A stretch of DNA of 64,000 nucleotides from Klebsiella variicola (GTDB lineage: Bacteria > Pseudomonadota > Gammaproteobacteria > Enterobacterales > Enterobacteriaceae): the NCBI RefSeq assembly GCF_000828055.2, contig NZ_CP010523.2:2976001-3040000 (forward strand). Direction: 5' to 3'. Both the position numbers and the translations under genes were made by a program. The notes beneath the pieces were generated by a model. That model was not told the DNA's origin and made no database searches. It worked only from the letters and a program-made list of their open reading frames with translations. Positions 2,692 through 18,699 of the stretch are shown piece by piece (position 1 is the stretch's first letter; each line of letters begins with the position of its first letter).

Positions 2692-4959
2692 ATGGCAAAC
2701 GGCTTGAAATTTTCTCCTCGTAAAACCGCGCTGGCGCTGGCCGTGGCGGTGGTTTGCGCCTGGCAATCACCGGTCTTCGCCCACGGCAGCGAAGCCCACA
2801 TGGTACCGCTGGATAAAACGCTGCAGGCGTTCGGCGCCGATGTGCAGTGGGATGACTACGCGCAGATGTTTACCCTGATAAAAGACGGCGCTTACGTTAA
2901 AGTGAAGCCCGGCGCCAAAACCGCGATCGTCAACGGTAAAACCCTTGACCTGCAGGTGCCGGTGGTGATGAAGGAAGGAAAAGCCTGGGTCTCCGATACC
3001 TTTATCAACGATGTCTTCCAGTCCGGTCTCGATCAGACCTTCCAGGTGGAAAAGCGCCCTCACCCGTTAAACTCGCTCTCGGCGGCGGAAATCAGTGAAG
3101 CGGTGGCCATTGTTAAAGCCGCGCCGGAATTCCAGCCCAATACCCGCTTTACCGAAATTTCCCTGCACGAGCCGGATAAAGCGGCGGTGTGGGCCTTTGC
3201 CCTGCAGGGTACGCCGGTCGATTCACCGCGCACCGCCGATGTGGTGATGCTGGATGGCAAACACGTGATTGAAGCCGTCGTCGATCTGCAAAACAAAAAA
3301 ATCCTCTCCTGGACGCCAGTTAAAGGCGCCCACGGGATGGTACTGCTCGATGATTTTGTCAGCGTGCAGAACATCATCAACGCCAGCAGCGAATTCGCTG
3401 AGGTGCTGAAAAAGCACGGTATTACCGATCCCAGTAAAGTGGTCACCACCCCGCTCACCGTCGGCTATTTTGATGGCAAAGATGGCCTGCAGCAGGATGC
3501 GCGTCTGCTGAAGGTGGTCAGTTATCTCGATACCGGCGACGGCAACTACTGGGCGCACCCGATTGAAAACCTGGTGGCGGTGGTCGACCTTGAAGCGAAG
3601 AAAATTATCAAAATTGAGGAAGGCCCGGTGATCCCGGTACCGATGGAGCCCCGTCCGTATGATGGCCGCGACCGCAACGCCCCGGCGGTGAAACCGCTGG
3701 AGATAACCGAACCGGAAGGCAAAAACTACACAATCACCGGGGATACCATTCACTGGCAAAACTGGGATTTCCACCTGCGCCTGAACTCACGCGTCGGGCC
3801 AATTCTCTCGACGGTGACCTACAACGATAACGGCAAAAAACGCCAGGTGATGTATGAAGGTTCCCTCGGTGGGATGATCGTTCCCTACGGCGACCCGGAC
3901 GTCGGCTGGTATTTCAAAGCCTACCTCGACTCCGGCGATTACGGCATGGGCACCCTGACCTCGCCGATTGTCCGCGGCAAGGATGCGCCATCGAATGCGG
4001 TGCTGCTGGATGAAACCATCGCCGATTACACCGGCAAACCGACCACGATTCCAGGCGCGGTCGCCATATTCGAACGCTATGCCGGGCCGGAATATAAGCA
4101 CCTGGAGATGGGCAAGCCCAACGTCAGTACCGAACGCCGGGAACTGGTGGTACGCTGGATCAGTACCGTCGGGAACTATGATTATATCTTTGACTGGGTG
4201 TTCCACGACAACGGCACCATCGGTATCGACGCCGGCGCCACCGGGATTGAAGCCGTCAAAGGCGTGATGGCGAAGACCATGCACGACCCCAGCGCCAAAG
4301 AGGATACCCGCTACGGGACGCTGATCGACCATAATATTGTCGGCACCACCCACCAGCACATCTATAACTTCCGCCTCGACCTCGACGTGGACGGCGAAAA
4401 CAACACCCTGGTGGCGATGGATCCTGAAGTGAAGCCCAACACCGCCGGTGGCCCGCGCACCAGTACCATGCAGGTGAATCAGTACACCATTGACAGCGAG
4501 CAGAAAGCGGCGCAGAAATTCGACCCGGGAACCATTCGCCTGCTGAGCAACACCAGCAAAGAGAACCGCATGGGCAACCCGGTCTCTTATCAGATCATCC
4601 CGTATGCCGGCGGTACGCATCCGGCGGCGACCGGCGCGAAGTTCGCCCCGGACGAGTGGATCTACCATCGCCTGAGCTTTATGGATAAACAGCTGTGGGT
4701 GACGCGCTACCACCCGACAGAGCGTTATCCGGAAGGGAAATACCCGAACCGTTCCGCCCAGGATACCGGCTTAGGGCAGTACGCAAAGGATGATGAGTCG
4801 CTGACTAACCACGATGACGTCGTGTGGATCACCACCGGCACCACTCACGTGGCGCGCGCCGAAGAGTGGCCGATCATGCCGACCGAGTGGGCGCACGCCC
4901 TGCTGAAGCCGTGGAACTTCTTTGACGAAACCCCAACCCTTGGCGAGAAGAAAAAGTAA
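2692..4959 (+). CDS. tynA: TynA (MaoA) copper/TPQ primary-amine oxidase
   Basis: This periplasmic copper amine oxidase converts tyramine, phenethylamine and similar amines to aldehyde, ammonia and hydrogen peroxide. The 755-residue precursor has a signal peptide ending at Ala30 (SPVFA-HGSE). Tyr496 in the NYDY motif is the residue converted to topaquinone. His554, His556 and His719 are the copper ligands and Asp413 is the catalytic base; all four sites equal the E. coli mature numbers plus 30. A GAGG-type ribosome binding site precedes the ATG. The product aldehyde is the substrate of FeaB, here 12 kb downstream rather than adjacent. Expression is expected to depend on FeaR and tyramine or phenethylamine, as in relatives. 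Confidence 0.97.
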   Translation: MANGLKFSPRKTALALAVAVVCAWQSPVFAHGSEAHMVPLDKTLQAFGADVQWDDYAQMFTLIKDGAYVKVKPGAKTAIVNGKTLDLQVPVVMKEGKAWVSDTFINDVFQSGLDQTFQVEKRPHPLNSLSAAEISEAVAIVKAAPEFQPNTRFTEISLHEPDKAAVWAFALQGTPVDSPRTADVVMLDGKHVIEAVVDLQNKKILSWTPVKGAHGMVLLDDFVSVQNIINASSEFAEVLKKHGITDPSKVVTTPLTVGYFDGKDGLQQDARLLKVVSYLDTGDGNYWAHPIENLVAVVDLEAKKIIKIEEGPVIPVPMEPRPYDGRDRNAPAVKPLEITEPEGKNYTITGDTIHWQNWDFHLRLNSRVGPILSTVTYNDNGKKRQVMYEGSLGGMIVPYGDPDVGWYFKAYLDSGDYGMGTLTSPIVRGKDAPSNAVLLDETIADYTGKPTTIPGAVAIFERYAGPEYKHLEMGKPNVSTERRELVVRWISTVGNYDYIFDWVFHDNGTIGIDAGATGIEAVKGVMAKTMHDPSAKEDTRYGTLIDHNIVGTTHQHIYNFRLDLDVDGENNTLVAMDPEVKPNTAGGPRTSTMQVNQYTIDSEQKAAQKFDPGTIRLLSNTSKENRMGNPVSYQIIPYAGGTHPAATGAKFAPDEWIYHRLSFMDKQLWVTRYHPTERYPEGKYPNRSAQDTGLGQYAKDDESLTNHDDVVWITTGTTHVARAEEWPIMPTEWAHALLKPWNFFDETPTLGEKKK

Positions 4960-4961
4960 TC

Positions 4962-5912
4962 TTAGCCCGCGGTGAAATCGAGCAGGATTTTACCGCCTCT
5001 TCCCGGCTGGTCGGCGGCGGCAATCGCCTCCCGCCAGTCGTTCAACGCTATGCGCTGGGCCGGCGGCTGGGTGGTCGTTGGCAAGCGCAGCCAAATCTCG
5101 TCAAACGCCGCCCGCCACGCCGCCACGCTGAGTGTCGGCAACGCCTCCCGCAGATGAAACTTACGCACCGTCGCGCTACCGCGCGTCTGGGTCAGCGGCC
5201 GCCCGGATAACAGCCCATAGGAGATCAGGGTCGACGATGCGGGCAGCACCGACAGCAGCGTATTCGCCAGTTCGCCGCCCACCGCGTCAAACACCAGATC
5301 GCTGTGTTGGCTGACCTTCTCCATCAGCGCCCGGTCGGTATCGAGGATCGGATAGATCCCGGCCTGTTCCAGGCGCGCCCGGTGCTGCGGCGAGCGAATA
5401 ATCCCGCTCACCGAGCGGGCGCCCATCGCCAGCGCCCACTGTCCCAGCAGGCTGGCGCAGGAGGACGATGCCGCGGTCAGCACAAGGTGTTTTCCGGCAA
5501 CCGGCCAGCGCTTGAGCATCAGCATAGCCGTCAGCGGATTGATATACCCGCGGGCAGCCAGCAGATCGTCAACCGCTGGCGGCACCGGCACCAGCCAGGT
5601 CTCATCCAGATCGATAAACCGCTGCCAGGTGCCGCCCCCGCGAAGAGGTAGCACCCGCTGTCCCGCGGACAGCCGGCTGCCGTATGGCGCGGCGACCACC
5701 TCGCCAAGGCCTTCATAACCAGCGACGGCCGGCAGTCGGGTGCGGTGGCGATAGGCGCCGGTCACGGGGATCAGATCCGAGGGATTCACCGGGGCATAGC
5801 GCATCCTGACCCGCACCCGTCCGCCCGCCAGCGGCGCCAGCGGCAGGCGTTTCAGGGTCAGCACGGCGGCCGGCGGCCCGTAGCGGTCATAAACAATGGC
5901 GTCGTTGAACAT
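4962..5912 (-). CDS. MDR-family reductase (quinone/enoyl reductase-like)
   Basis: A zinc-independent medium-chain dehydrogenase/reductase of about 316 residues, resembling quinone oxidoreductases and trans-2-enoyl-CoA reductases. The N-terminal GroES-like part includes NPSDLIPVTG and PAVAGYEGLGEV. A Rossmann region follows (LTAASSSCASLLGQWA). The cysteine pattern of a structural zinc site is absent. I chose the ATG at 5912 because GGAG lies 8-9 bases upstream; an in-frame ATG at 5945 has no ribosome binding site. It is the last gene of the leftward operon, 55 bp after the PhyH gene, and converges on tynA with only 2 bp between the stop codons. The substrate is unknown. Confidence 0.8.
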   Translation of the reverse strand: MFNDAIVYDRYGPPAAVLTLKRLPLAPLAGGRVRVRMRYAPVNPSDLIPVTGAYRHRTRLPAVAGYEGLGEVVAAPYGSRLSAGQRVLPLRGGGTWQRFIDLDETWLVPVPPAVDDLLAARGYINPLTAMLMLKRWPVAGKHLVLTAASSSCASLLGQWALAMGARSVSGIIRSPQHRARLEQAGIYPILDTDRALMEKVSQHSDLVFDAVGGELANTLLSVLPASSTLISYGLLSGRPLTQTRGSATVRKFHLREALPTLSVAAWRAAFDEIWLRLPTTTQPPAQRIALNDWREAIAAADQPGRGGKILLDFTAG

Positions 5913-5967
5913 CGACAGGCTCCAGACAGCGAAAGGCGGGATCATAGCAGATCCCGCCGCCAGTGGC

Positions 5968-6786
5968 TCACGCCCGCGGCCAAACCTGGGGGAACAGCGG
6001 GGAATCCAGCGGGTCGCCGTCCCGCAGGGTCAGCTCGGGGAACGGTGGCGACGTCACGCCGCCGCGATCGGCAAACGCGGCGTCATCCCCCACCCAACGG
6101 GCGGAGAAGACCCGTCGCGCCCGCGCGCCGGGGTTGCCGCGGGCGCCATGGACGGTGCGGAAATGGAAGGCCACCGCATCCCCCGGCTCCAGCGCCCAGC
6201 TGACGATATCGTATTCGTCCTCATGGGCGTCGATATCCGGCAGGGTGCTGAACCGGGTGTGCTCGTAAAGCTTAGTGCCATTGAAACGGGTAGGACTGAA
6301 CTCCTCCTCCCAGCGATGCGACCCGCGAATGCAGCGCAGCGAGGTGGCCTCCGCCACCGGGTCCAGCGGGATCCAGAAGCTGACGTTCTGTCTGCCGGAG
6401 ACGCAATAGTAAGGCTGGTCATGATGCCAGGGAGTCACCGTGCTGCCTCCGGCCGGTTTGACCAGCGTATGTTCATGGAAAAATTTCGCCGTCTGCGACT
6501 GCATCAGCGCCGCCGCGATCTCGGCGGCCGCTGACTGAAAGACAAACTCGCTAAACGCCGGGATCCGCGACCAGTTGCAGTAGTCCTGAAAAAAAGGCGG
6601 CGAACCATCTTTGGGGATCACCGTGCGCGCATGACCATACTCGCTGGGGCTGGCCATCAGCGCCGTGACCCCCTCGGCGAGGCGATCGACCCAGGGGGTA
6701 AAGACGCCTTTTAATAACACCGCGCCATCCGCCTGCCAGCGGTCGATGGTCGCTTGATCGATGTGGGGAGAGTGTTGATTGTGCAT
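5968..6786 (-). CDS. PhyH-family Fe(II)/2-oxoglutarate dioxygenase
   Basis: A 272-residue member of the phytanoyl-CoA dioxygenase family, which hydroxylates small molecules using iron and 2-oxoglutarate. The facial triad is visible: His121-x-Asp123 (in WHHDQPY) and distal His213 (HFRTVHGA), with arginines around 222-225 as likely 2-oxoglutarate contacts. It lies 24 bp after the M20 deacetylase gene in the same leftward operon. A second, divergent family member (13469-14341) sits in the transporter operon, so the pathway probably has two separate oxidation steps. The substrate cannot be read from the sequence. The family also includes ectoine and amino-acid hydroxylases. Confidence 0.88.
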   Translation of the reverse strand: MHNQHSPHIDQATIDRWQADGAVLLKGVFTPWVDRLAEGVTALMASPSEYGHARTVIPKDGSPPFFQDYCNWSRIPAFSEFVFQSAAAEIAAALMQSQTAKFFHEHTLVKPAGGSTVTPWHHDQPYYCVSGRQNVSFWIPLDPVAEATSLRCIRGSHRWEEEFSPTRFNGTKLYEHTRFSTLPDIDAHEDEYDIVSWALEPGDAVAFHFRTVHGARGNPGARARRVFSARWVGDDAAFADRGGVTSPPFPELTLRDGDPLDSPLFPQVWPRA

Positions 6787-6810
6787 CGCTTGGGTTCCTG
6801 TGTTGAGGGA

Positions 6811-7968
6811 TCAGGTGAGCGGTTCCGCCGGTTCGGCACGCATCCACGCGCAAAGCTGTCTCAGCATCGTCATACAGCGCTCGGTCTGCGCGATGCTGAT
6901 GTACTCATCGGCCTTATGGCCCTGGGCCATGCTGCCCGGTCCGCAGACCAGGGTCGCGACGCCCATCTCATCGAACAGCCCTCCTTCGGTGCCGAACGCC
7001 ACGGTGGAGAAGCGATCGCTGCCGCACCACTGTGACAGCCAGCGGGCGAAGTCGGACTGCGGATCGCTGAGCAGCGGCGGATAGTGGCTTAACAGCTGGA
7101 ACTGGATGTCGCTCCCGCTGCCTACCCGGCGCATCTCCGGCAGCAGCTGGCGGCGGGCGTAGGCCGCCAGCGCCTCGGTGACCGCTTCGGGACGCATCCC
7201 CGGCAGGTAGCGGATCTCAAAATCAAAGCGGCAGGACTGCGGAACAATATTCAGCGCGGCCCCACCCTGAATAGTGCCCACCTGCAGCGTGCTGAAGGGC
7301 GGCGAAAAGCGGCTGTCCTGCTGCCGGGCCAGACGCACGCCCAGCCGATCCAGGTGGTTGATCAGCCTGGCCGCGTAGCGGATGGCGTTCACCCCCTGCG
7401 GGGCATAGGCCGAATGGCAGGCCTGCCCCTCGATGCAGCAGCGCATGGCCAGTTTGCCTTTATGACCGAACACCGGCTGCATCTCTGTCGGCTCGCCGAT
7501 GAGGCACAGCGCCGGTTTCTCCGGCGAGGCCTGCAGAAAATCCACCAGGCTGCGCACGCCGAGACAGCCGACCTCTTCGTCATAGGAGAAGGCCAGATGC
7601 AGTGGCATGCGCAGCGGCGCCGCCAGAAAGTCATCCACTGCCGCCAGCACGCAGGCGAGAAACCCCTTCATATCGGCGCTGCCGCGGCCATAGTAGCGGC
7701 CATCGCGCTCGGTGAGGCTGAAAGGCGGAACGCTCCAGGCCTGGCCGTCCACCGGGACCACGTCGGTGTGGCCCGAGAGCATCACCCCACCGCCGCCGGA
7801 CGGCCCCAGCCGGGCGTAGAGATTGGCCTTACCGCCCGACGGGTCATAAAAGCGGCGGGACGCCACGCCGCGGGCAGCGAGAAAATCGGCGATCCAGTCG
7901 ATCATCGCCAGGTTCGAATGGCGGCTGGTGGTGTCAAAAGCCAGCAGCGCGGCGAGGATGTTATTCAT
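6811..7968 (-). CDS. M20 metallo-deacetylase, ArgE-like
   Basis: An M20-family amidohydrolase resembling acetylornithine deacetylase. It has the metal-binding motifs SGHTDVVPVDG, GRGSADMKGF and DEEVGCLG and a dimerisation domain in the middle. The open frame extends to 8097, but the ATG at 7968 gives 385 residues, the usual ArgE length. It also overlaps the stop of the upstream DUF1028 gene by 8 bases (ATGAATAA), typical of translational coupling. The frame upstream of this ATG is simply the DUF1028 gene in another register. The genuine arginine-pathway argE is expected elsewhere with argCBH, so this copy probably removes an acyl group from a catabolic intermediate of this operon. Confidence 0.87.
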   Translation of the reverse strand: MNNILAALLAFDTTSRHSNLAMIDWIADFLAARGVASRRFYDPSGGKANLYARLGPSGGGGVMLSGHTDVVPVDGQAWSVPPFSLTERDGRYYGRGSADMKGFLACVLAAVDDFLAAPLRMPLHLAFSYDEEVGCLGVRSLVDFLQASPEKPALCLIGEPTEMQPVFGHKGKLAMRCCIEGQACHSAYAPQGVNAIRYAARLINHLDRLGVRLARQQDSRFSPPFSTLQVGTIQGGAALNIVPQSCRFDFEIRYLPGMRPEAVTEALAAYARRQLLPEMRRVGSGSDIQFQLLSHYPPLLSDPQSDFARWLSQWCGSDRFSTVAFGTEGGLFDEMGVATLVCGPGSMAQGHKADEYISIAQTERCMTMLRQLCAWMRAEPAEPLT

Positions 7969-8635
7969 CGCCGGGGACGCCATAGGCGGGCGCATCGCGA
8001 GGGTCGAGCGCCCGGGTAATATAGGCGTCCATTTGCGGCTCCCAGGCCAGCCACAGTTGCTCAAGGGCCGCCAGCGGATCCGTCTCCGCCCAGTCAATAC
8101 GCAGATCGACCACCGGCCACGGGTAATCGTCCACCACCTTCACCGCCGCCGAGTGGACCGGGCCGGCCTCGCCCCCGGCGGCAATCCCCGCGCGCAGCCC
8201 GGCCAGCAGCCGGCTGGCCAGTTCACCGCTCGCCGTCTCGAAGGCGGCCACCATCGCGGCGATCACCTCGTGACTGGCCAGCATGTTGCCCGCCGCCACG
8301 CAGTTATCTCCCGCCAGGGTGCCACCGATCCCGAGAGTATGTTCCCCGCTGAACGCCGCCACTTCACCGTTGGCATCAATCGCCGCGACCTGGCGATATT
8401 CGCGGAAGCGGTCCTCCGCCAGGGCCAGGTTCAGAGCCTGCTCAACGGAGGCCCCCGCCTCAAGCGCACCAAGAATATGCGGCCCCAGCGACGGTAAGGT
8501 TATGTTCTGACTGGCGACTGCGCCGACGCCGGGCAATAGCCACGGACAGCGCGATCCCACGGCCATGCTCGACGAACTAATGGCAATGCCCAACTGACCT
8601 GATTCCGGGCAGCGGGCGCTAATAGAGAGAGTCAT
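7961..8635 (-). CDS. DUF1028 family protein (Ntn-hydrolase-like)
   Basis: A 224-residue protein of the DUF1028 family. The family is predicted to have the Ntn-hydrolase fold but lacks a firmly assigned reaction. The family signature is clear at the N-terminus (MTLSISARCPESGQLGIAIS) and in VGAVASQN. If the initiator Met is removed, Thr2 becomes the N-terminal residue, as Ntn-hydrolases require; this is inference. It overlaps the RidA-like gene by 4 bases and the M20 gene by 8, so the three are translated together. DUF1028, Rid and M20 proteins together suggest amide or imine hydrolysis in a shared pathway. Confidence 0.85.
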   Translation of the reverse strand: MTLSISARCPESGQLGIAISSSSMAVGSRCPWLLPGVGAVASQNITLPSLGPHILGALEAGASVEQALNLALAEDRFREYRQVAAIDANGEVAAFSGEHTLGIGGTLAGDNCVAAGNMLASHEVIAAMVAAFETASGELASRLLAGLRAGIAAGGEAGPVHSAAVKVVDDYPWPVVDLRIDWAETDPLAALEQLWLAWEPQMDAYITRALDPRDAPAYGVPGDE

Positions 8636-9066
8636 TCTGCTGCCTCCCCCTGCCAGTCGTCAGGGATCACCGCCGTAACGTCAATCTCCATCAGCCACTG
8701 CGGCTGCGCGAGGGCCGACACCACCACCCCGGTGGAGATGGGAAAGACGCCTTTTAACCATTTGCCCACCTCCTGATAGACCGGCTCGCGATAGCGGGGA
8801 TCGATCAGATAAGTGGTGGTCTTGACGATATGCGAGAGGTCGCTTCCCGCCTCTTTCAGCAACTGTTCAACATTCTTCATTGCCTGCTCCGCCTGCGCCC
8901 GCGGGTCGCCGAGGCCAATCAGATTGCCGGCGAAATCGGTGCCAACCTGGCCGCGAACGTAGACGGTATTGCCGGCCCGCACCGCCTGGCACAGATCGTT
9001 GTTCAGCGCCTGGTTCGGGTAGGTCTCTTTGGTGTTAAACATGCGAATACGGGTATGAGTTGGCAT
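8632..9066 (-). CDS. RidA/YjgF-family protein lacking the catalytic arginine
   Basis: A 144-residue YjgF/YER057c/UK114-family protein. Canonical RidA hydrolyses reactive enamines and imines to 2-oxo acids and needs an arginine (Arg105 in E. coli, context PARS). The aligned segment here reads FPISTGVVVSAL (about residues 108-119), with Ser111 in place of that arginine. It is therefore probably not a classical imine deaminase but one of the arginine-less Rid subgroups. I chose the ATG at 9066, with AAGGAG 7 bases upstream; a TTG one codon earlier is less likely. It lies 24 bp after the FMO gene in the same operon. Confidence 0.88.
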   Translation of the reverse strand: MPTHTRIRMFNTKETYPNQALNNDLCQAVRAGNTVYVRGQVGTDFAGNLIGLGDPRAQAEQAMKNVEQLLKEAGSDLSHIVKTTTYLIDPRYREPVYQEVGKWLKGVFPISTGVVVSALAQPQWLMEIDVTAVIPDDWQGEAAE

Positions 9067-9090
9067 CAAAGCACTCCTTAAGGAAAACGG

Positions 9091-10350
9091 TTAACAGGAC
9101 GGCTGGTAACGCTGGTACTGGCGCTGAATGGCGATCTGGTCGGCAATATATTTGGCATCGTGCCAGACGCCCCAGATAAAGGTGGACCCGCGCCGCGAGA
9201 GCCAAGGCAGGCCGAGGAAATAGACGCCCGGCTCCGTCGATACGCCGCGGTGATGCTGTGGCCGCTGTGCGTCATCGAAGGCGTTGACCTTCAGCCAGCG
9301 ATAGTCGGTGGTGTAGCCCGTCGCCCAGATGATGGTGCCGATCCCGGCCTCAGCCAGATTGAGACTGAGCAGCGGGTCGGTAACGCAGGCCGGATCGGGC
9401 AGAAATTCTCGGGCGGAGGGCTCTTCGGGCAGGTCCATACCGTTGCGGGCCACCCACGCGTCCGCGGCGTCGAGCAGCGCAAGGTAGGAGGCATCGCCGC
9501 GGCGGATATTCTCCGCCAGGTCGTGGTGAAACAGTGCTTTGTCACCGTCAAAGCCGCGGGTCTGCCCCACTAACGTGACCCCCTGATGCGCCAGCTGGCG
9601 AAAATCGACGGTATGGCCGCCGCGCGCGCCGCTCACCGCGATAGTGACATGCTCTTTACCCGGCGCATTGGCCGCGGCATCCCACATTCCCAGCACCCCG
9701 AGCCACCAGCAAAAATCGCGCTGACGATAGCGACGCGGCGGGCGGTCGTGCGCTCCCACCGACAGCCACACCGCGCGTCCGGCTCGCTGTAGCTCATCGG
9801 CAATCTGCACGCCGGAGGAGCCTGCGCCAATCACCAGCACACCGCCCTCCGGTAGCTGCTGCGGGTTAAAATAGTGCGCGGAGTGGAGCTGCTGAATAGC
9901 CTGACTCTGTGGGGCGATGGCCGGGATCACTGGCCGCTGAAACGGCCCGGTGGCCGCTACGATCCGCTGCGCTTCAATCACCCCCTGCGAGGTGTCGATA
10001 CGAAAGCCCGGCCGTCCGACGAGGCGTTCGGCGCTGAAAACCTCCACCCCGGTACGGATCGGCGCATTGAAGCTGCGGGCATAGGCGGCAAAATAGTCTG
10101 CCACCTGCTCTTTGCCGACAAAGCTGTCTGCCGGGCAGTCCGGGAACACCATGCCCGGGAACCGATCGTGCCAGGCCGGGCCGTTGGCGACCAGCGAATC
10201 CCAGCGTCCGCTGCGCCAGGCCTGGGCAATACACTGCTTTTCCAGCACCAGGTGGGGGATATCCAGCCGGGTCAGATGCTCGCTCATGGCGACGCCCGCC
10301 TGCCCCGCGCCCACCACCAGGGTATCGATCTCGGTAATCTGTTCAGTCAT
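9091..10350 (-). CDS. FMO/CzcO-type NAD(P)H flavoprotein monooxygenase
   Basis: A 419-residue FAD- and NAD(P)H-binding protein of the flavin-containing monooxygenase/CzcO group. The first Rossmann motif is GAGQAG (residues 14-19). A second, GAGSSG, lies in the middle for NADPH. The canonical FMO fingerprint FxGxxxHxxxY is only partly present (LHSAHYFN). Such enzymes oxygenate N or S atoms, or act as Baeyer-Villiger enzymes. The ATG at 10350 has AAGGA 8 bases upstream; the frame extends only to an upstream TTG. It is the first catabolic gene of the leftward operon, about 170 bp after the LysR gene. Confidence 0.85.
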   Translation of the reverse strand: MTEQITEIDTLVVGAGQAGVAMSEHLTRLDIPHLVLEKQCIAQAWRSGRWDSLVANGPAWHDRFPGMVFPDCPADSFVGKEQVADYFAAYARSFNAPIRTGVEVFSAERLVGRPGFRIDTSQGVIEAQRIVAATGPFQRPVIPAIAPQSQAIQQLHSAHYFNPQQLPEGGVLVIGAGSSGVQIADELQRAGRAVWLSVGAHDRPPRRYRQRDFCWWLGVLGMWDAAANAPGKEHVTIAVSGARGGHTVDFRQLAHQGVTLVGQTRGFDGDKALFHHDLAENIRRGDASYLALLDAADAWVARNGMDLPEEPSAREFLPDPACVTDPLLSLNLAEAGIGTIIWATGYTTDYRWLKVNAFDDAQRPQHHRGVSTEPGVYFLGLPWLSRRGSTFIWGVWHDAKYIADQIAIQRQYQRYQPSC

Positions 10351-10518
10351 TTCGCTATCCTTCAAGCACAGTTGCCGACGACGTCGCCGGAATTGACGGC
10401 TTTCAGGTTATTTAACTGTGACGAATTGGTAAAATATTATAAAACGATCGACTGAATAGAATTTTACGAGGCTGAGTGACGACAAAAAATAATGCCTGCC
10501 GGATCGACAGGCGTTATT

Positions 10519-11433
10519 TCAGGCGTGAGTTGGGGTTAATTCGATGCTGCGACAATAATCCATAAACAGTTGCGTCGGCCGCGTGGGCTCATTATTCGCG
10601 AGATGCGCCATAATTAAGGTCGAGGCGGGCATCTCGTCGGCAATATCCCGCTGCACCACTCTTTCGCCATCGTAGGTCATATCGCAGCAGGGCCGGGTGA
10701 CCAGCACCGAAAAACCCAACCCCTGACCCACCATACAGCGCACCATTTCAATGGAGGGGGAACTGTAAGCCACTTCCGGGTGATAACCCTTTTCCTTAAA
10801 GATGGAGATAAAATAATTTTTACTGGGGACCGCATCGAGGAGGATCATCGGCTCGCGGCTCAGCTCCTGCAGCGTCACCTGCGCCTTCTGCGCCAGCGGA
10901 TGCGCGGCGGGCAGCAGCGCGTAGGGTTTATGCGGGGCATTGAGCCGCTCTTTATTGATCGAATGGCCGAGCTCCAGATCGTAAACCAGCGCGAGGTCGA
11001 AGCGGCCGCGGTGCAGGCCATGCATCAGCTCATGCTGTTCGCCGTCGTACAGATGCAGGGTGATTTCCGGATAGCATTTCTTAAACCCGGCCACCAGCTT
11101 CGGCATATACAGCGGAGCCACCGATTCGAAGCAACCGATGGAGATCATGCCAGAAACCAGCTCTTTATCCGCTCGCGAATTCTGTTCGAACTCCCAGGAC
11201 AGGCGCAGCAGCTCTTTCGCTTTATCGTAGATCCGCCGACCGCTGGAGGTGAGCGAAACGCCCTGCGCATGGTGGCGAATAAACAGCTGCTGGTCGAAGG
11301 TGCTCTCCAGATTCTTGATGGCAATCGAAATCGACGGCTGCGCAATGTGCAGCTGGCGGGAGGCCTCGGCGATACTCTCCGTCTCCACCACGGTGACGAA
11401 ATATTTGAGCTGCTTCAGGGTAAATCGGTTCAT
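10519..11433 (-). CDS. LysR-family transcriptional regulator
   Basis: A 304-residue LysR regulator. The winged helix-turn-helix occupies about residues 1-60 (LKQLKYFVTVVETESIAEASRQL) and a periplasmic-binding-protein-like effector domain follows. The frame is open to 11553, but the Met at 11433 starts the conserved domain and has GGTGAT upstream. It is divergent from the transporter operon across a 488-bp gap and sits at the head of the FMO operon, so it is the likely regulator of both. The effector would be the unknown substrate of the cluster. Confidence 0.9.
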   Translation of the reverse strand: MNRFTLKQLKYFVTVVETESIAEASRQLHIAQPSISIAIKNLESTFDQQLFIRHHAQGVSLTSSGRRIYDKAKELLRLSWEFEQNSRADKELVSGMISIGCFESVAPLYMPKLVAGFKKCYPEITLHLYDGEQHELMHGLHRGRFDLALVYDLELGHSINKERLNAPHKPYALLPAAHPLAQKAQVTLQELSREPMILLDAVPSKNYFISIFKEKGYHPEVAYSSPSIEMVRCMVGQGLGFSVLVTRPCCDMTYDGERVVQRDIADEMPASTLIMAHLANNEPTRPTQLFMDYCRSIELTPTHA

Positions 11434-11921
11434 AGCATCACCATTGATAAAATATGGTCCGGCGCACACGGGGAATAGTTTTCCTCTAAGTCCCAAGCAA
11501 TCCGCGTGCCACCCCAGGAAAAGAGCGGCGCATTGCCCGACAAGGGGCGACAATATTTATTATTGCTCTACGCCCGCGTGGTTTATTTCCACCATTGCAC
11601 CATCATGCGCCACGCTGCACGCCAGACTGGCAGCGTCTGCCCCAGTTTCGCGCAAAATAACCTGTCTGCGCAAAATAGCGTTATTGAATTACAGTCATTG
11701 TTTTTAAATTGTTTACGCAAAGTATCTTAACAATCACTTTAAATTCCATATCGTTAATATCGCTGTATAGTTTTTTTAAACTTAAAGGCCAAAAATTTAC
11801 TAATTGCCTCTGAAAGCATCCTGCCAGCATAGTGTATTCGCACGATGAATACCGGTGGCTCCCCATTACGGCACAGCCAAGCCACTTTCATTTTTGATAA
11901 TTATGACGAGTGAAATAGCCC
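11434..11921. promoter_or_regulatory. Divergent control region of the inserted cluster
   Basis: This AT-rich stretch holds no gene. It separates the LysR gene from the ABC-transporter operon. A perfect 10-bp direct repeat, GCGCAAAATA, occurs at 11650-11659 and 11668-11677 with an 18-bp period. A related CGCAAAGTA lies at 11716-11724. These are the best candidates for regulator binding sites, but I cannot assign them to LysR. Confidence 0.5.
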
Positions 11922-13442
11922 ATGACGTTTAACTGGAACTACATGTTAAGCCTGCTCAGCGATGCCGATTTTTGGTGGGCCACCTGGACCGTCATTAAAT
12001 TAAGTCTGCTGACCTGGGGCTGCAGTATTGTGCTCGGATTTATTCTGGCGCTGGCCAAACAGTCGCCGCGCGGCTGGTTATCCACCCCAGCCCGGCTGTA
12101 TATCTGGTTATTTCGCAGTATGCCGCTGCTGGTCCTGCTGATTTTTGTCTACAACATGCCGCAGGCGCTGCCCTCCTTCGCCCCGGTGCTGAACGATCCC
12201 TTCTGGGCCGGCCTGCTGGCGATGGTCCTCAGCGAAGCGGCTTATATCGCCGAGATCCACCGCGGCGGATTGCTCTCCATCCCTCGCGGGCAGAGCGAAG
12301 CCGCACGGGCCCTGGGGTTGCGCTACGCCGGGATCCAGTGGCGGGTGATCATCCCCCAGGCGCTGCGCGTCGCCCTGCCGGCGCTGGCCAATGAATATAT
12401 CGCCATCGTGAAGCTCAGTTCGCTGGTGTCGGTGATCTCCCTGACCGAAATATTGATGGTCGGCCAGCAGCTCTACTCGCAGAACTTTCTGGTCATGGAG
12501 ACGATGACGGCCGTGGCGTTTTATTACATCTTTATCGTCACGGTGTTCGATTTTCTGCTGAAACGGCTGGAGAACTACCTTGACGTAACCCAGCGCAATA
12601 CCGCTCGTCCGGTAGATGCCGAGATGCAGCGGCTGGCCAGCGCCCGCCGCCCGGCGATGGCGCGCAGCGTCGCCCAGAGTCATGAGCCGGCGCTGCAGGC
12701 CTCTAAGCTGCATAAGGCCTACAACAACGTCGAAGTGCTGGGGGCGGTGAGCCTGCAGATCCAGCCCGGCGAGGTGGTCTCGGTCATCGGTCCGTCAGGC
12801 TCGGGGAAAACCACCCTCATTCGCCTGCTGAACGGTCTTGAGCAGATCGATAACGGCGAAATTCAGATTAACGGCCAACCCTTTATTCACCTCGACCGCC
12901 AGGGGCAGCAGAAGCCGCGCTTTATGGAGAATGCCGAACATCGCCTGAACATCGGCATGGTGTTCCAGAGCTTTAACCTGTTCCCGCATCTGACCGTGTT
13001 CGGCAATCTGCTGCTGGCCCCGCGCTATCACCATCTGGCAAGTGACGCGGAGCTCCGCCAGCACGCCTGCGAACTGCTGCACAAAGTGGGCATGCTGGAG
13101 CACGCCTGGAAGTATCCGCACCAGCTCTCCGGCGGACAGCAGCAGCGGGTGGCGATCGCCCGCGCCCTGATGATGCGTCCGCAGATCATGCTGTTCGATG
13201 AGCCCACCTCGGCGCTGGATCCGGAAAAAGTGAATGAAGTGCTGCAGGTTATCGAATCCCTGGCCCACGAAGGCATCACCATGGTCATCGTCACCCACGA
13301 GATGAACTTCGCCTTCAAAGTGTCCGACCGGATCGTGTTTATGGAGAAAGGCCGGGTGGTGTGCGATGACACGCCGCAGGCGATGCGTAGCGGGCAACAC
13401 CCGCGGGTCGAGGCCTTTCTCAAAGATGTTTCTCTGGCTTAA
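11922..13442 (+). CDS. Fused polar amino-acid ABC permease/ATP-binding protein
   Basis: One 506-residue polypeptide joins two normally separate subunits. Residues about 1-225 are a HisM/GlnP-type inner-membrane permease with the EAA-type loop (SEAARALGLRYAGIQWRVIIPQA). Residues about 250-506 are the ATPase, with Walker A GPSGSGKTT at about 290, signature LSGGQQQR at about 402 and Walker B LFDEPTSALD. A homodimer would supply both permease and both ATPase subunits. The partner binding protein is encoded two genes downstream. It is the first gene of the rightward operon and is probably controlled by the divergent LysR. The family imports amino acids or related zwitterions. Confidence 0.92.
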   Translation: MTFNWNYMLSLLSDADFWWATWTVIKLSLLTWGCSIVLGFILALAKQSPRGWLSTPARLYIWLFRSMPLLVLLIFVYNMPQALPSFAPVLNDPFWAGLLAMVLSEAAYIAEIHRGGLLSIPRGQSEAARALGLRYAGIQWRVIIPQALRVALPALANEYIAIVKLSSLVSVISLTEILMVGQQLYSQNFLVMETMTAVAFYYIFIVTVFDFLLKRLENYLDVTQRNTARPVDAEMQRLASARRPAMARSVAQSHEPALQASKLHKAYNNVEVLGAVSLQIQPGEVVSVIGPSGSGKTTLIRLLNGLEQIDNGEIQINGQPFIHLDRQGQQKPRFMENAEHRLNIGMVFQSFNLFPHLTVFGNLLLAPRYHHLASDAELRQHACELLHKVGMLEHAWKYPHQLSGGQQQRVAIARALMMRPQIMLFDEPTSALDPEKVNEVLQVIESLAHEGITMVIVTHEMNFAFKVSDRIVFMEKGRVVCDDTPQAMRSGQHPRVEAFLKDVSLA

Positions 13443-13468
13443 CTATCGGAACGTGAAGAGGAAAAACT

Positions 13469-14341
13469 ATGATTGCGCAGTGGCAAATTGATCAGTTTCA
13501 TCAGCAGGGTTTTCTGGTGGTCGAAGAGGTGCTTTCCAGCGCCGACATCGCCGCCCTGCAGAGCGATTTCGACGGCTGGGTCGAGGAGAGCCGCGGTCAC
13601 GCGACGGTGTGGGGAGAAACCCTCGACGGGCGGCCACGCTTCGATATCGAGCGCGATCATGCTCCTGACCATCCGTCGCTGCGCCGGGTCGCCTCCCCGA
13701 CGGAGATCTCCGAGGCCTATCGCCATACTGCGCTGAACTCGCGGATGGCGACCATCGCCGCGCAATTGATCGGCGGCAGCGGCACCCGCTTTCATCACAG
13801 TAAAATTAACTCCAAGCTGCCGCACACCGCCACCGAGGTGAAATGGCATCAGGATTTCCTTTTCACCCCACACAGCAATGACGACATCATCACCGCCCTG
13901 CTGATGGTCAGCGAGGTGACGCCAGAGAATGGCCCGCTCAACGTGGTGCCGGGCAGTCATCAGGGGCCGCTGTGGTCCCACTGGCAGGAGGGGCGCTTCA
14001 CGGGGGCGGTGGATGATGAGGTGGTGGCGACGCACTGCCAGCAGCCGCAGGCCTGTTTTGGCCCGGCGGGCTCAGTCTGCTTTATGCATACCCGCCTGCT
14101 GCACGCCTCCAGCCCCAACGAGACCGCCCTGCCGCGCACCCTGTTCATCAGCGTCTACGCCGCGGAGGATGCGCTACCCTACGGCGAAAACCCGCTGCCG
14201 AGCCGCCATGCCGGCCACCTGGTCGCGGGAGAAGAGAGCGGTCTGGTGCGCAGCACCAATAACCAGCTTCGTCTGCCGCAGAAGCCGCGCGGCGCTTCGT
14301 TTTTTGTTCAGCAGGCCGGCGCCGATCGCGCCAGCATGTAA
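13469..14341 (+). CDS. PhyH-family Fe(II)/2-oxoglutarate dioxygenase (second copy)
   Basis: A 290-residue dioxygenase of the phytanoyl-CoA hydroxylase family, distinct from the copy at 5968-6786. Iron ligands are His127-x-Asp129 (KWHQDF) and His212 (LLHASS), with Arg223 (LPRT) positioned for 2-oxoglutarate. A GAGG ribosome binding site precedes the ATG, 26 bp after the transporter stop. Its place between the permease/ATPase and the binding-protein gene suggests that it acts directly on the imported compound. Confidence 0.9.
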   Translation: MIAQWQIDQFHQQGFLVVEEVLSSADIAALQSDFDGWVEESRGHATVWGETLDGRPRFDIERDHAPDHPSLRRVASPTEISEAYRHTALNSRMATIAAQLIGGSGTRFHHSKINSKLPHTATEVKWHQDFLFTPHSNDDIITALLMVSEVTPENGPLNVVPGSHQGPLWSHWQEGRFTGAVDDEVVATHCQQPQACFGPAGSVCFMHTRLLHASSPNETALPRTLFISVYAAEDALPYGENPLPSRHAGHLVAGEESGLVRSTNNQLRLPQKPRGASFFVQQAGADRASM

Positions 14342-14364
14342 TTTGCCCATACTCCGGAGGTTTT

Positions 14365-15195
14365 ATGACACGCATTTTCGCACCACGCCCGCTGCCCCTG
14401 CTGCTCTGCGCAGCGGCTGCTCTGACATCCTTTAGCGCACTGGCCTTTCAGCAAAGCGGTAAGATCACCGCCGGTTCGGACATGACCTTTTTTCCTTACG
14501 AGTACATGGAAAACAATAAGCCAGCCGGTTTTGACATCGAGCTGCTCGATGGTCTGGCGAAGACTATGGGCCGTGAAGCAGTGAATATCGATACCCGCTT
14601 CCCCAACCTGATCCCCGGGCTGCAGGGCGGGCGCTTCGATATCACCAACTCGTCGATGTACATTACCGCCGAACGCCTGAAGGTGATCGATATGGTGCCG
14701 TACCTGAAAAGTGGGGAAGCGATCCTCGCCCGCAAAGGCGGCGACTACCAGCCTAAGACCCCGGAAGACTTCTGCGGGCATAAAATCGGCTCGATGGGCG
14801 CCACCTCGTGGCTGGCGCAATTGCAGAAGCTTTCCGCCGACTACTGCGTGAAGAAGGGGTTGAAGCCGATTGCGCTGAGCGTTTATACCACCGACCCGCA
14901 GACCACCCAGGCGCTGTTGTCGCGCGCGGTGGATGCGCAGATCACCGACGCCGCCGTGGCGCGCGGGGTGGTGGAAAAACTGGGTGACCGGGTGGTTATC
15001 TCCTCTGATACGCTGATCTATCCGGTGCTGAACGGCTTTGGCGTTAAAAAAGGCAATACTGAGGTGAAAACCGCCCTCGAAGAGGCGCTGAAAAAATACA
15101 GCGCGACGCCGGAATATGCCGCCCTGCTGAAGAAATATCACTTCCAGGCGCCGACGGCGGACGATCTGCAGACCCTGATGCCGAAAGCGGAGTAA
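14365..15195 (+). CDS. Periplasmic solute-binding protein (family 3, amino-acid type)
   Basis: A 276-residue extracellular solute-binding protein of the polar amino-acid family. The signal peptide is cleaved after about Ala27 (FSALA-FQQS) and there is no lipobox, so it should be free in the periplasm. The start has an excellent GGAGG ribosome binding site. Family motifs include GSDMTFFPYEYMENNKPAGFD near the N-terminus and a fold-repeat at SMGATSWLAQL. It is expected to deliver ligand to the fused permease/ATPase encoded at the head of the same operon. The stop codon overlaps the next start (TAATG). Confidence 0.92.
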   Translation: MTRIFAPRPLPLLLCAAAALTSFSALAFQQSGKITAGSDMTFFPYEYMENNKPAGFDIELLDGLAKTMGREAVNIDTRFPNLIPGLQGGRFDITNSSMYITAERLKVIDMVPYLKSGEAILARKGGDYQPKTPEDFCGHKIGSMGATSWLAQLQKLSADYCVKKGLKPIALSVYTTDPQTTQALLSRAVDAQITDAAVARGVVEKLGDRVVISSDTLIYPVLNGFGVKKGNTEVKTALEEALKKYSATPEYAALLKKYHFQAPTADDLQTLMPKAE

Positions 15196-15932
15196 TGCCC
15201 ATGCGCGATTCCGATGAAGAGCAGATCCGCATCGACCTGGCGGCCACCTTTCGCATCATTGCCCATCTTGGCATGCATGAGGCGGTGGCCAACCATTTCA
15301 GCGCCGCGCTCTCCGCCGACGGGAAAACGTTTTTACTCAACCCGAAGTGGAAACACTTTTCGCGCATCCGCGCCAGCGATCTGCTGGTGCTGAACGCCGA
15401 TGATGAAGGTTGCGCCGCGCGCCCTGACGTCGATGCCACCGCGTGGGCTATTCACGGGCAGATCCATCAGCGGCTCCCGGACGTGCGGGTGGTTCTGCAT
15501 CTGCACCCGGTGTACACCACCAGCCTCGCCTGTCTGGCGACGCCGCAGATCCTGCCCATCGACCAGAACACGGCCCGCTATTTTAACCGGGTCGCCGTCG
15601 ATACCCTGTACGGCGGGATGGCGGACACCGCGGCAGAAGGCGCCCGGCTGGCGGGCCTGCTGGCGGACAAACGCCGCCTGCTGATGGGGAATCACGGGGT
15701 GCTGGTGACCGCCCCGACCATCGGCGAGGCGTTCGATGATATCTGGACCCTGGAGCGCGCCTGTCAGATCCTGATCACCGCCTGGTCCACCGGCCAGCCT
15801 CTGAAGGTTCTGTCAGACGCGGTAGCGGAAAAAACGGCCCAGGACTGGGAGAAGATTGCCGATTTCTCGCGGCAGCATTTTGCCGAAATGAAGCAGTTAA
15901 TGATCGACCTCGATCCCTCCCTGGTGGACTAA
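15195..15932 (+). CDS. Class II aldolase/adducin-family protein
   Basis: A 245-residue member of the class II aldolase/adducin fold. Zinc-ligand histidines are present at His102 and His104 (LHLHP) and His167 (GNHGV). The glutamate of the classical fuculose- and ribulose-phosphate aldolases (SSEW context) is missing; the equivalent stretch reads DATAWAIHGQIH. It may be a lyase or decarboxylase variant rather than a sugar-phosphate aldolase. The start is coupled to the binding-protein stop (TAATG); a second in-frame ATG lies 6 bases on. It is the last gene of the rightward operon. Confidence 0.85.
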   Translation: MPMRDSDEEQIRIDLAATFRIIAHLGMHEAVANHFSAALSADGKTFLLNPKWKHFSRIRASDLLVLNADDEGCAARPDVDATAWAIHGQIHQRLPDVRVVLHLHPVYTTSLACLATPQILPIDQNTARYFNRVAVDTLYGGMADTAAEGARLAGLLADKRRLLMGNHGVLVTAPTIGEAFDDIWTLERACQILITAWSTGQPLKVLSDAVAEKTAQDWEKIADFSRQHFAEMKQLMIDLDPSLVD

Positions 15933-15949
15933 CCCCGCGCCTGCCCGGG

Positions 15950-16840
15950 TCAGCCCGGGCCGTCGCTGGCTGCCGCCAGCAGCGGCACGATGATATCGCT
16001 GAGCGGTGTCGGAATGCCGTGCTGACGCCCGCGACGCTGCACCACGCCGTTACGAATATCCCACTCCAGCGGTCGGCCATTCAGGCGATCGATCAGAATA
16101 GAGGTGCTTAAGTCGGCAGGCGCCCGGTGAAAGCCGGCGATAATCTCCTCCGGCACGCTGTCGCCCAGGGCGGCCCCTTCCGCCCGCGCTACCTGCAGAC
16201 ATTCGCGCAAATAAGCCAGTCCGAGGGCAGTGATGTCTTCCCGGGCAAACATCCCGGCGCGGCGTCCGGTCAGCACCATCAGTCCGGCTACGGCGTTCTG
16301 CAACAGTTTACGCCAGGCCACGGTGGTAAAATCCGCCGCCAGGTCCACCGCGCAGCGGGTCCCCGCCAGCGCCTGCTGCACTCGCTCTGCCCCCGGCAGA
16401 TCCGGGAGGGTCAGGCGCGGCGTGGCGCGCAGCCAGACAGAGGCATCGGCATCGCGCTGCGCCGGAAACCAGACCACCGAGGGCAACACCGTCGCGCCGC
16501 CGGTCAGGGGGGCAAACTGCTGGCGCTGCTCAACGCCGTTTTGCAGCACGCACACCACGGTGTCCGTGGAACACAGGGCCGTCAGCCAGGAGGCGATGGC
16601 CTCCGTCTGGGTAGTTTTCACCGCGACAAAGACCAGGTCGAAGGGGGCGGCTATCGCCGTTGGGTCGGTGTGCACCGGGCCGGGCACCACGATCTCGCCC
16701 TCGTCAGTGCGCAGCACCAGCGCCGAATGGGCGGTACGCCCGCAGACCATCGGCGCCCTCCCCACCTCAAACAGGGCGGCGGCGATAGTCGTGCCGATGG
16801 CGCCGGGACCAATAAGTGCAACCTTAGGAAATGCTGTCAT
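15950..16840 (-). CDS. Ketopantoate reductase-like (PanE/ApbA family) oxidoreductase
   Basis: A 296-residue NAD(P)-dependent reductase of the 2-dehydropantoate 2-reductase family. It has the Rossmann motif GPGAIG near the N-terminus and the catalytic-lysine segment AWRKLLQNAV. The ATG at 16840 has AGGAGG 8 bases upstream; a longer frame to 16894 has no such signal. It converges on the aldolase-like gene with 17 bp between stops and lies upstream of nothing on its own strand except feaB (125 bp). It is unlikely to be the housekeeping panE and probably reduces a 2-oxo acid made by the neighbouring pathway. Confidence 0.85.
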   Translation of the reverse strand: MTAFPKVALIGPGAIGTTIAAALFEVGRAPMVCGRTAHSALVLRTDEGEIVVPGPVHTDPTAIAAPFDLVFVAVKTTQTEAIASWLTALCSTDTVVCVLQNGVEQRQQFAPLTGGATVLPSVVWFPAQRDADASVWLRATPRLTLPDLPGAERVQQALAGTRCAVDLAADFTTVAWRKLLQNAVAGLMVLTGRRAGMFAREDITALGLAYLRECLQVARAEGAALGDSVPEEIIAGFHRAPADLSTSILIDRLNGRPLEWDIRNGVVQRRGRQHGIPTPLSDIIVPLLAAASDGPG

Positions 16841-16964: not shown

Positions 16965-18464
16965 CTAGTAACGCACGCAGACGGATTTGGTTTCGCACCA
17001 GCCGTCGAGCCAGTCAGGGCCGAAATCGCGGCCGGTACCAGACTGCTTCATGCCGCCGAAAGGCAGGTTGGCGTCAATCAGGGTATGGCTGTTGACCCAT
17101 ACCGTCCCAGCCTGCAGACGGTCGGTGTAGTTCAGGGCCTGGGTCAGATCGCGGGTCCAGACGCTGGCGGTCAGGCCATAATCGCTGTCGTTGGCCAGAC
17201 GCAGCGCCTCCTCGCCGTCGGCCACCCGCACCAGGTTCACCACCGGGCCAAACACCTCCTCACGGGTGAGGCGCAGCCCGGCGTCGGGGTTAACCACCAG
17301 CGTCGGCGGAATATAATACCCCCCCGCATCCGGTCCGGCGCTGCCGCTGATGAGCTCTGCCTTCTGCTGGCGAGCCTCTTCGAGGTAGGCCGCCACCTTG
17401 TCGCAGTGGGCCCGGGAGACCACCGGGTTGATCTGCGCCGTCTCCTGCATCCCCGGCCCCACCTGCAGCGATTTTACCGCCTGCTCGAAACCGCTGACCA
17501 GGGTGTCAAACAGCGGCGCTTCGATGTAGATCCGCGAGCTGGCGGCGCAGACCTGCCCCTGATTGAGGAAGCTACCGGTCATCAGCCCCTCAATAACCCA
17601 CTGGGGATCGGCATCTTTGAGCACAATCGCCGGGTTCTTGCCGCCCAGCTCCAGCGTCACGCGAGTCAGGCGGTCGGCGGCCACGCGGGCGATCTGTTTC
17701 CCGGTCGCCGTCGAGCCGGTAAAGCTGACCTTCGCTACCTGCGGATGGGCGGTCAGCGCCGCGCCGCAGCCCGCGCCGCTGCCGGTGACCACGTTGAATA
17801 CCCCGTCAGGTATTCCCGCCAGGGTCGCCAGCTCCGCCACCCGCAGCAGGGTCAGCGGGGTGGTTTCAGAAGGTTTGATGACGATCGAACAGCCTGCCGC
17901 CAGGGCCGGCATGACCTTCCACATGCCGATCATCAGCGGGAAATTCCACGGGACGATGCCCGCCACCACCCCGACCGGCTCTTTTTTGGTCCACGCCTGG
18001 TAACGCGCCCCTTGCGGGAACGGGATCGACACGTCCAGCGTCCGGCCGCTGATCTTGGTGGTCAGCCCCGCGGTGTAGCGCATCCAGTTCAGGGTGCAGC
18101 CGACCTCAAAGGCGCGAGAGATCGCAATGGATTTGCCCTGCTCAAGGGTTTCCAGTTGCGCCAGCTCTTCGCCGTGCTGCTCCACCAGGTCGGCAAAACG
18201 CAGCAGGATGCGTTCACGGTCGGCCGGGGTGCGCCCGGCCCAGCGGCGATCGACAAAAGCGCGCCAGGCGGACATTACCGCCCGGTCAACATCCGCCGGG
18301 CTGGCGTCGGCGGTGGTGGCAATCGCCTGCCCGGTGGCCGGATCCCAGACGGTTAACCGGTTTTCGCTCTGCGCGGCGCAGGGAGCGCCGTCGATATACA
18401 GGCCATGCTGACGGTCTAAAAACTGCTGGACGCTGGCAAGCAGCGCTATCTGAGAGGTGGACAT
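16965..18464 (-). CDS. feaB: FeaB phenylacetaldehyde dehydrogenase
   Basis: NAD-dependent aldehyde dehydrogenase that turns phenylacetaldehyde and 4-hydroxyphenylacetaldehyde into the corresponding acids. At 499 residues it equals the E. coli length and matches it closely throughout as I remember it. Catalytic residues are Asn173 (PWNF), Glu272 (LELGGK) and Cys306 (GQVCAAS). It is divergent from feaR across about 235 bp, as in E. coli. In E. coli tynA follows feaB directly; here about 12 kb intervenes. FeaR activation is expected from E. coli. Confidence 0.97.
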
Positions 18465-18699
18465 ACCCTTTCCTTATTCTTCGCGGATAGTGCTTTCAGT
18501 CTATGTCCGGTTGGCGGCTGGCGCTTTTTTCTCTGTGACATTCGTTTGCGCCGCTGTGACAGTCGCCGCAAATCCGCGGCTTACCCTGGCAGAAATGTGC
18601 CGCAGGTAATAGTTCTTTCATATACCCGCCATCGCGGCCTTGCCTGAGGCGGCATAAATGCAACAATGCGGAAACATTGTTATTACAGGAGAAGGGCGA

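Follow-up and report, generated by a model that had tools for sequence, protein, structure and literature searches.

The window analysed here, a stretch of 64,000 nucleotides from the 5.52-Mb genome of Klebsiella variicola, contains a block of genes between tynA and feaB of the aromatic amine locus (Table 1) that is a composite of a known route of imidazole-4-acetate degradation and an undescribed module for import and oxidation. By family profile searches of the window proteins, the tynA-feaB interval holds 12 intact open frames: the 11 genes of a preliminary description of this DNA, all of them present, intact and of the families given there, and a LysR regulator gene. On the minus strand lie, in this order, the genes of an FAD monooxygenase (FMO), a Rid protein, a DUF1028 protein, an M20 amidohydrolase, a PhyH-family oxygenase (PhyHA) and an MDR reductase, plus LysR; on the plus strand lie those of an ABC permease-ATPase, a second PhyH-family oxygenase (PhyHB), a periplasmic binding protein (SBP) and a protein of class II aldolase fold (ALD). 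The layout is more than the two divergent operons around LysR that had been described, since the gene of a PanE-like reductase stands apart, leftward, downstream of feaB. The importer is a true fusion of two domains in a single frame, as described. In Escherichia coli K-12, feaB and tynA were confirmed to be convergent neighbours with a gap of only 57 bp; compared with that species, the block is indeed an insertion.

Table 1. Features of the tynA-feaB interval and its flanks (positions in the window)
Feature	Position	Strand	Basis or remark
tynA	2692-4959	+	left flank of the cluster
MDR reductase	4962-5912	-	older tynA-feaB junction gene, outside the module; alone at the junction in G001 and G005 (74-76%), with PanE in G018
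PhyHA, Fe(II)/2-oxoglutarate oxygenase, PhyH family	5968-6786	-	Klebsiella module member; PF05721, 98 bits
hinG-like M20 amidohydrolase (N-formylaspartate deformylase, EC 3.5.1.8, by homology)	6811-7968	-	PRK07522/AcOrn-deacetyl models
hinH-like DUF1028 amidase, probably N-terminal-threonine (Ntn) hydrolase	7961-8635	-	PF06267
hinL-like Rid protein (enamine/imine deaminase)	8632-9066	-	RidA arginine absent, Ala in its place relative to E. coli RidA
hinF-like FAD monooxygenase (imidazole-4-acetate 4-monooxygenase, EC 1.14.13.5, by homology)	9091-10350	-	TIGR04046-like, under model cut-off
Promoter element TTTATAATATTTTAC	10429-10443	-	78 bp before hinF
LysR regulator resembling HinK	10519-11433	-	best PDB matches 3fzv, 6m5f
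Fused amino-acid-type ABC permease-ATPase	11922-13442	+	BPD_transp_1 and ABC_tran in one frame
PhyHB, Fe(II)/2-oxoglutarate oxygenase, PhyH family	13469-14341	+	conserved module member; PF05721
Periplasmic binding protein (SBP_bac_3)	14365-15195	+	family profile
ALD, class II aldolase fold, predicted non-haem iron oxidative decarboxylase	15195-15932	+	structure and sequence comparison
PanE-like reductase	15950-16840	-	older junction gene, downstream of feaB; at the junction of G018, G009, G011, G016, G017 and G008 without the hin block
feaB	16965-18464	-	right flank of the cluster
feaR	18658-19602	+	beyond feaB

The hinFLHG core and its probable regulator

The genes for FMO, Rid, DUF1028 and M20 stand in the order of hinF, hinL, hinH and hinG and, with LysR, correspond to the published hinFLHG genes and a HinK-type regulator. 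This core is therefore not uncharacterised, as the whole block had been called; about half of the genes belong to a pathway already described under another name, whereas the second module is new. According to passages of a review (PMC8231116), HinCD convert histamine to imidazole-4-acetate, HinFLHG convert imidazole-4-acetate to aspartate, and in P. aeruginosa the hinFLHG operon is under the control of HinK, a LysR protein that responds to imidazole-4-acetate. Passages of another (PMC6467879) give HinF as the FAD monooxygenase EC 1.14.13.5, HinL as an enamine deaminase, HinH as an amidase and HinG as EC 3.5.1.8. The window shares with Pseudomonas putida U and P. aeruginosa the same four enzymes in the same order and a HinK-like LysR, but the Pseudomonas system has HinA, HinC and HinD, which the window cluster lacks, having ABC-PhyHB-SBP-ALD and PhyHA instead. 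Some Pseudomonas FMO loci add a LysR, an aldehyde dehydrogenase, an APC permease and a class III aminotransferase, which is the histamine (hin) set. The hin copy of P. aeruginosa PA7 is followed by genes that by eye resemble a carnitine cluster, and in strain PAO1 PA5390-PA5393 likewise stand beside the carnitine cluster.

The window FMO is 71-74% identical to the product of the first gene of hinFLHG-type operons at four Pseudomonas loci, PA7 included; relative to the PA7 copies alone, the FMO, Rid, DUF1028 and M20 proteins are 74, 92, 63 and 66% identical, respectively. Rid is the most conserved member of the core, at 89-92% identity across the four loci, far above its operon partners (59-74%), which hints at a strongly constrained intermediate or partner. 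It lacks the RidA arginine, as had been noticed (VARL of E. coli RidA is VSAL in the window protein), and so does the PA7 copy. M20 (60-66% identity at the four loci) can be aligned with E. coli ArgE; a role in arginine or ornithine metabolism, suggested by the name 'acetylornithine deacetylase', was rejected on the content of the cluster. In the DUF1028 protein, Met1-Thr2 is invariant in 15 of 15 aligned sequences, and its predicted structure (pLDDT 86.9) matched, among the 50 PDB entries listed, its own family (2imh) and otherwise chains of HslV, the proteasome, Anbu and BPH, weakly (E of 7e-5 and above). It is probably an N-terminal-threonine amidohydrolase acting in a ring-opening or amide step. 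By homology, the window core would turn imidazole-4-acetate into aspartate as the Pseudomonas Hin enzymes do.

All four core genes are present in 77 of 80 loci (exceptions: L032, L048 and L083; compared loci and genomes carry the prefixes L and G, G000 being the window's own), and a few loci have them split or rearranged. Retrieved by their FMO, the 80 loci rank highest among at least 586 relatives, and the presence of FMO in each is by construction; some are truncated by contig ends, and genes were called with simple scripts that may miss or misplace small ones. The comparison of gene neighbourhoods upholds the co-conservation of FMO, Rid, DUF1028 and M20.

The best PDB matches of the window LysR, 3fzv and 6m5f (374 and 373 bits over 294 residues, E of 4e-111 and 6.9e-111), we take to be HinK (PA0218) of P. 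aeruginosa, the PDB table naming them only 'Probable transcriptional regulator'. In a tree of 74 LysR rows (65 different, some genomes being present twice), 33 rows of LysR proteins linked to PhyHB, including those of the window, Pseudomonas and Marinomonas, group with L023 and L117, separately from eight HinC-linked Klebsiella rows and from a clade of 27 rows, most of them of Pseudomonas. Among solved structures HinK is the nearest to the window LysR, but in the tree the latter belongs with the PhyHB-linked proteins, among which regulator and cassette travel together. By analogy with P. aeruginosa HinK, the window LysR would respond to imidazole-4-acetate.

Linkage of the second module to the core

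In Enterobacterales and Pseudomonas alike, the genes ABC-PhyHB-SBP-ALD make up a cassette of almost constant composition. ABC, PhyHB and SBP occur together in nine of the 80 FMO loci, eight of which also have ALD (in Klebsiella, Pantoea, Erwinia, Mangrovibacter and Chimaeribacter), the ninth being from Marinomonas. In the genus of Pseudomonas sp. PDM04, PhyHB is encoded at 78-82% identity by 24 of 298 genomes; in all 24 the four cassette genes are together, and in 20 FMO lies within the same ~20 kb. A hinF match (E 1e-150) was found in 23 of these 24 genomes versus 181 of the 274 that lack PhyHB (Fisher p 0.002, with shared ancestry ignored). A sample of the order, comprising 394 genomes with the window's own, contained PhyHB in two, both with hinF, and hinF in eight. 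No match to PhyHB was found on plasmids at E 1e-60, and in the open-licence literature no description of this module, or of hin genes from Klebsiella, was recognised.

Within Klebsiella, 16 of 20 genomes have PhyHB and all 16 have hinF; two have hinF without PhyHB and two have neither. Nine of them (G000, G002, G006, G007, G012-G015 and G019) have a single cluster in which hinFLHG is flanked by LysR and PhyHA and joined to the cassette, and seven (G004, G008, G009, G011 and G016-G018) carry the cassette, LysR and PhyHA as a separate locus, which in six of the seven includes a second ABC importer, with hinFLHG elsewhere. HinC (E 1e-200) was found in seven of the 20 genomes and in none of the nine with the fused cluster; the 11 of 18 hin-bearing genomes that have no HinC match all have PhyHB.

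PhyHA and hinF have a common promoter element even where they are on different contigs or more than 1 Mb apart. The 15-mer TTTATAATAWTTTAC has 26 matches in the 20 Klebsiella genomes, of which 19 are 60-81 bp before hinF, seven are 84-111 bp before PhyHA (in the seven genomes where PhyHA is at the separate locus) and none is elsewhere; the reversed pattern, used as a control, has no matches, and there are none in the two Klebsiella genomes that lack hin. The sequences flanking the element are also similar at hinF and PhyHA. The segment TTTATAATA contains the sigma-70 -10 consensus, so any strong promoter would be expected to conserve part of the element, and it is the restriction to hinF and PhyHA that counts. 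A motif search mainly returned the promoter cores of hinF and ABC, and a simple dyad scan for a T-N11-A LysR box found one in one of nine upstream regions and in none of the window's three. LysR would bind the shared element and also control the cassette promoter. Gene content, gene order, conservation, co-occurrence and the hinF/PhyHA promoter element are what the analysis observed directly.

It had been suggested that the position of the block could bring it under amine control by FeaR. The comparison does not support this. Klebsiella indica (G014) keeps the whole cluster, although its genome yields no tynA match at E 1e-100 and no feaB match at E 1e-200. Of the 18 Klebsiella genomes with hin, only G000, G013 and G019 have it between tynA and feaB; in the remaining 15 it adjoins feaB alone or is close to neither gene. 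The cluster also includes a LysR gene and a promoter element of its own and, although flanked in the window by tynA, feaB and feaR, is separable from them.

The same distribution bears on an alternative that we regard as unlikely, a plain histamine pathway under FeaR control, in which the importer would take up histamine, TynA would oxidise it, FeaB would make imidazole acetate and HinFLHG would finish its degradation, with the PhyH proteins and ALD as bystanders. In its favour, passages in the literature present hinFLHG as the second half of histamine degradation (PMC8231116) and propose a histamine oxidase as a replacement for HinC in Brevibacterium (PMC6467879), and HinC has no match at E 1e-200 in the window's genome. 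K. indica keeps the cluster with no match to either amine gene, however; in G018 and G004, which also lack HinC, tynA and hinFLHG are over 2 Mb apart or on different contigs; and a distance of over 20 kb separates tynA from hinF in G006, G007, G012 and G015, the two being on different contigs in G002. PhyHA is unlikely to be a bystander, because the hinF promoter element precedes it even where the two are unlinked, and SBP keeps an arginine for binding a carboxylate, for which histamine would have no need.

Predicted chemistry of the second module

PhyHB retains the HxD motif, the distal histidine and the arginine in alignment. Its best solved relative by sequence is ectoine hydroxylase EctD/ThpD (4mhr, E 1.8e-12), and ThpD is also its top-scoring NCBIfam model, but at 65 bits the match is far below the cut-off of 336.5, and no ectoine gene was recognised among the 12 genes of the interval. 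Ectoine use was rejected as the function of the module; the EhuA and GlnQ models score the ATPase alike, both below cut-off. In G019 (G019:C1:2083636-2084504), a close relative, PhyHB is in two reading frames, and the module there may be decaying or the assembly may be in error. Apart from the Klebsiella genomes with the cassette, PhyHA was seen only as a relative of 51% identity in G352; in G494, an otherwise complete cluster has a HalD-type Fe/2OG oxygenase after M20 (L158, 15028-15801), a possible stand-in for PhyHA. SBP retains the HisJ-equivalent arginine (ITAER) and aspartate (QITD) of the amino-acid site, which presumably bind the carboxylate and the alpha-amino group as in HisJ.

The ALD protein has an aldolase fold but is predicted to have another chemistry. 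It has alanine at the position of the catalytic Glu73 of FucA, within a Thr-Ala-Trp that is invariant in 24 of 24 aligned sequences, the window's included; retro-aldol chemistry of the zinc-dependent FucA type was rejected because this glutamate is absent. Three metal histidines are retained, and in fold comparison ALD resembles TqaM and NovR above FucA. The closest solved folds are the non-haem iron oxidative decarboxylases TqaM and NovR/CloR (23-25% identity), which serve in antibiotic or amino-acid biosynthesis, whereas ALD stands in a catabolic cluster. TqaM decarboxylates a 2-hydroxy acid, according to a passage on that enzyme, and by its entry title one TqaM structure contains 3-phenyllactic acid, the phenyl analogue of imidazole lactate. 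From these comparisons, ALD is predicted to be an O2-dependent iron oxidative decarboxylase of a 2-hydroxy or 2-oxo acid.

We consider it likely that the block is a catabolic cluster for imidazole acids in which the second module feeds imidazole-4-acetate to hinFLHG, which limits the first substrate to compounds from which imidazole-4-acetate can be made. We infer the order of the core's middle steps, and the substrate and all reactions of the second module, to be as follows. The ABC importer and binding protein would bring in an imidazole compound related to imidazole-4-acetate; by the likeliest chemistry, one or both PhyH enzymes would hydroxylate its side chain and ALD would then remove one carbon by O2-dependent oxidative decarboxylation, as in a route from imidazole propionate through imidazole lactate to imidazole-4-acetate. 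FMO would oxidise imidazole-4-acetate on the ring, the imidazolone ring would be opened, and release of the imine nitrogen and removal of the formyl group would leave aspartate. The HinK-like LysR would control both modules. The import and degradation of one zwitterionic nitrogen-containing compound, as had been proposed, is thus probably correct for most of the block, with MDR and PanE excluded. A more specific form of this proposal, which we hold only tentatively, is that the second module carries out an aerobic alpha-oxidation of imidazole propionate (or imidazole lactate), PhyH hydroxylating next to the carboxylate and ALD removing CO2; it would be the first gene set for this process.

Several observations weigh against the imidazole acid reading. 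Twenty Pseudomonas PhyHB loci have FMO, and in 17 of these it is a divergent copy (59-61% identical to the window's); a class II dehydroquinase-like gene (~148 aa) is present in 18 of the 24 PhyHB loci (L193-L214), usually beside the divergent FMO and Rid; and a second FMO match occurs in 10 of the 24 genomes. The Pseudomonas compound may therefore not be plain imidazole-4-acetate. One of the 24, G883, has the cassette with no FMO match at E 1e-150, a single exception. The window LysR falls outside the clade that contains the HinC-linked LysR proteins of Pseudomonas, and a LysR of at least 45% identity is found in only five of the 24 loci, most having one at 36-38%. The cassette promoter before ABC is conserved but unlike that of hinF and PhyHA, so common control of ABC-PhyHB-SBP-ALD is something we infer, and the element was not found before FMO in L194 and L215, the two Pseudomonas loci tried. 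For the aspartate that SBP shares with HisJ, a histidine-like ligand would be a better fit than imidazole propionate; the reading does not account for PhyHA; and relatives of PhyHB at 53-54% identity (L135, L136 and L137) adjoin genes that by eye resemble those of ectoine use (EutA, EutB and DoeA types).

A last point of this kind comes from Cedecea (L042 and L044), which has the importer, SBP (52-53%), LysR and hinFLHG but neither PhyHB nor ALD, these genomes having no PhyHB match at E 1e-30; the importer may therefore simply carry imidazole-4-acetate. PhyHB, PhyHA and ALD would then serve a side branch, such as the clearing of a dead-end or toxic analogue. This explanation seems improbable to us: the cassette of four genes is nearly fixed across Enterobacterales and Pseudomonas, which argues for a main step rather than a side branch.

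Junction genes and other possible inputs to hinFLHG

The reading of the block as an imidazole acid cluster does not extend to MDR and PanE. Neither has a match at 45% identity in the retrieved stretches of the 80 FMO loci, and in other Klebsiella genomes both stand at the tynA-feaB junction without the block being there. A single unit of 11 genes was rejected on the latter ground; the remaining genes are conserved together. The junction holds PanE, MDR and a DUF2235-like gene (named by eye) in G008, G011 and G017, PanE and other genes with no MDR recognised in G009 and G016, and no called gene in G004; the hin-less G003 and G010 have unrelated genes beside feaB. Across 11 Klebsiella genomes (L147-L157) the junction is a variable insertion site: its length runs from ~0.3 kb in G004 up to tens of kb, and its contents include MDR, PanE, DUF2235-like, MFS/LysR and RND-efflux-like genes (names partly by eye).

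The core is also found with other neighbours. An NCS1-type permease (cluster c5) is present in 25 of the 80 FMO loci. Plasmid pJNQH579-1 of K. variicola (L164, NZ_CP078147.1) carries all four core genes with an aldehyde dehydrogenase, a GMC oxidoreductase and a cytosine permease. Relatives of FMO on plasmids number 234 records at E 1e-100, 105 of them from Klebsiella and all below 80% identity; 131 of the 234 are below 60% and may be other FMO families. In Paraburkholderia and Caballeronia (L032, L037, L051, L068, L084 and L090), GbcA-like Rieske oxygenases (far below model cut-off) and importers resembling PotABCD by eye are near hinFLHG, and L037, L051 and L090 have a second Rieske oxygenase and a reductase. 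GbcA-like Rieske oxygenases are typically demethylases, and these loci perhaps represent a different oxygenase route into the hinFLHG pathway.

Such loci bear on a further explanation of the feeder module, N-demethylation, in which the PhyH oxygenases would demethylate methylimidazole acetate or methylhistidines to imidazole acetate or to an intermediate decarboxylated by ALD. Two PhyH oxygenases in Klebsiella would agree with it, as would the Rieske oxygenases of the six Burkholderia-type loci and the divergent Pseudomonas FMO, which would suit a modified ring. We nevertheless think it has a small chance of being right: demethylation alone leaves the TqaM/NovR-like ALD unexplained despite its presence in 24 of 24 Pseudomonas loci, and no formaldehyde-handling gene was recognised in the clusters, where no profile search was aimed at one.

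The hinFLHG set looks like an imidazole acetate hub with exchangeable inputs: an aminotransferase, a GMC oxidoreductase with a cytosine-type permease, Rieske oxygenases, and the PhyH/ALD cassette. The core was already known; the feeder module is new, conserved, and tied to the core by presence and, in Klebsiella, by a shared promoter. Klebsiella, Pantoea, Mangrovibacter, Chimaeribacter and Pseudomonas conserve the PhyH/ALD branch as a set, with one Marinomonas locus in which ALD is not in view; the promoter evidence for this branch comes from Klebsiella, and its substrate would fall within a short list of compounds. The comparison of ALD with TqaM and NovR suggests that this group of proteins, annotated as 'class II aldolase', are iron oxygenases. 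Imidazole propionate is a gut metabolite linked to diabetes and artery disease, and if the alpha-oxidation proposal is true, the cluster would be a bacterial sink for it.

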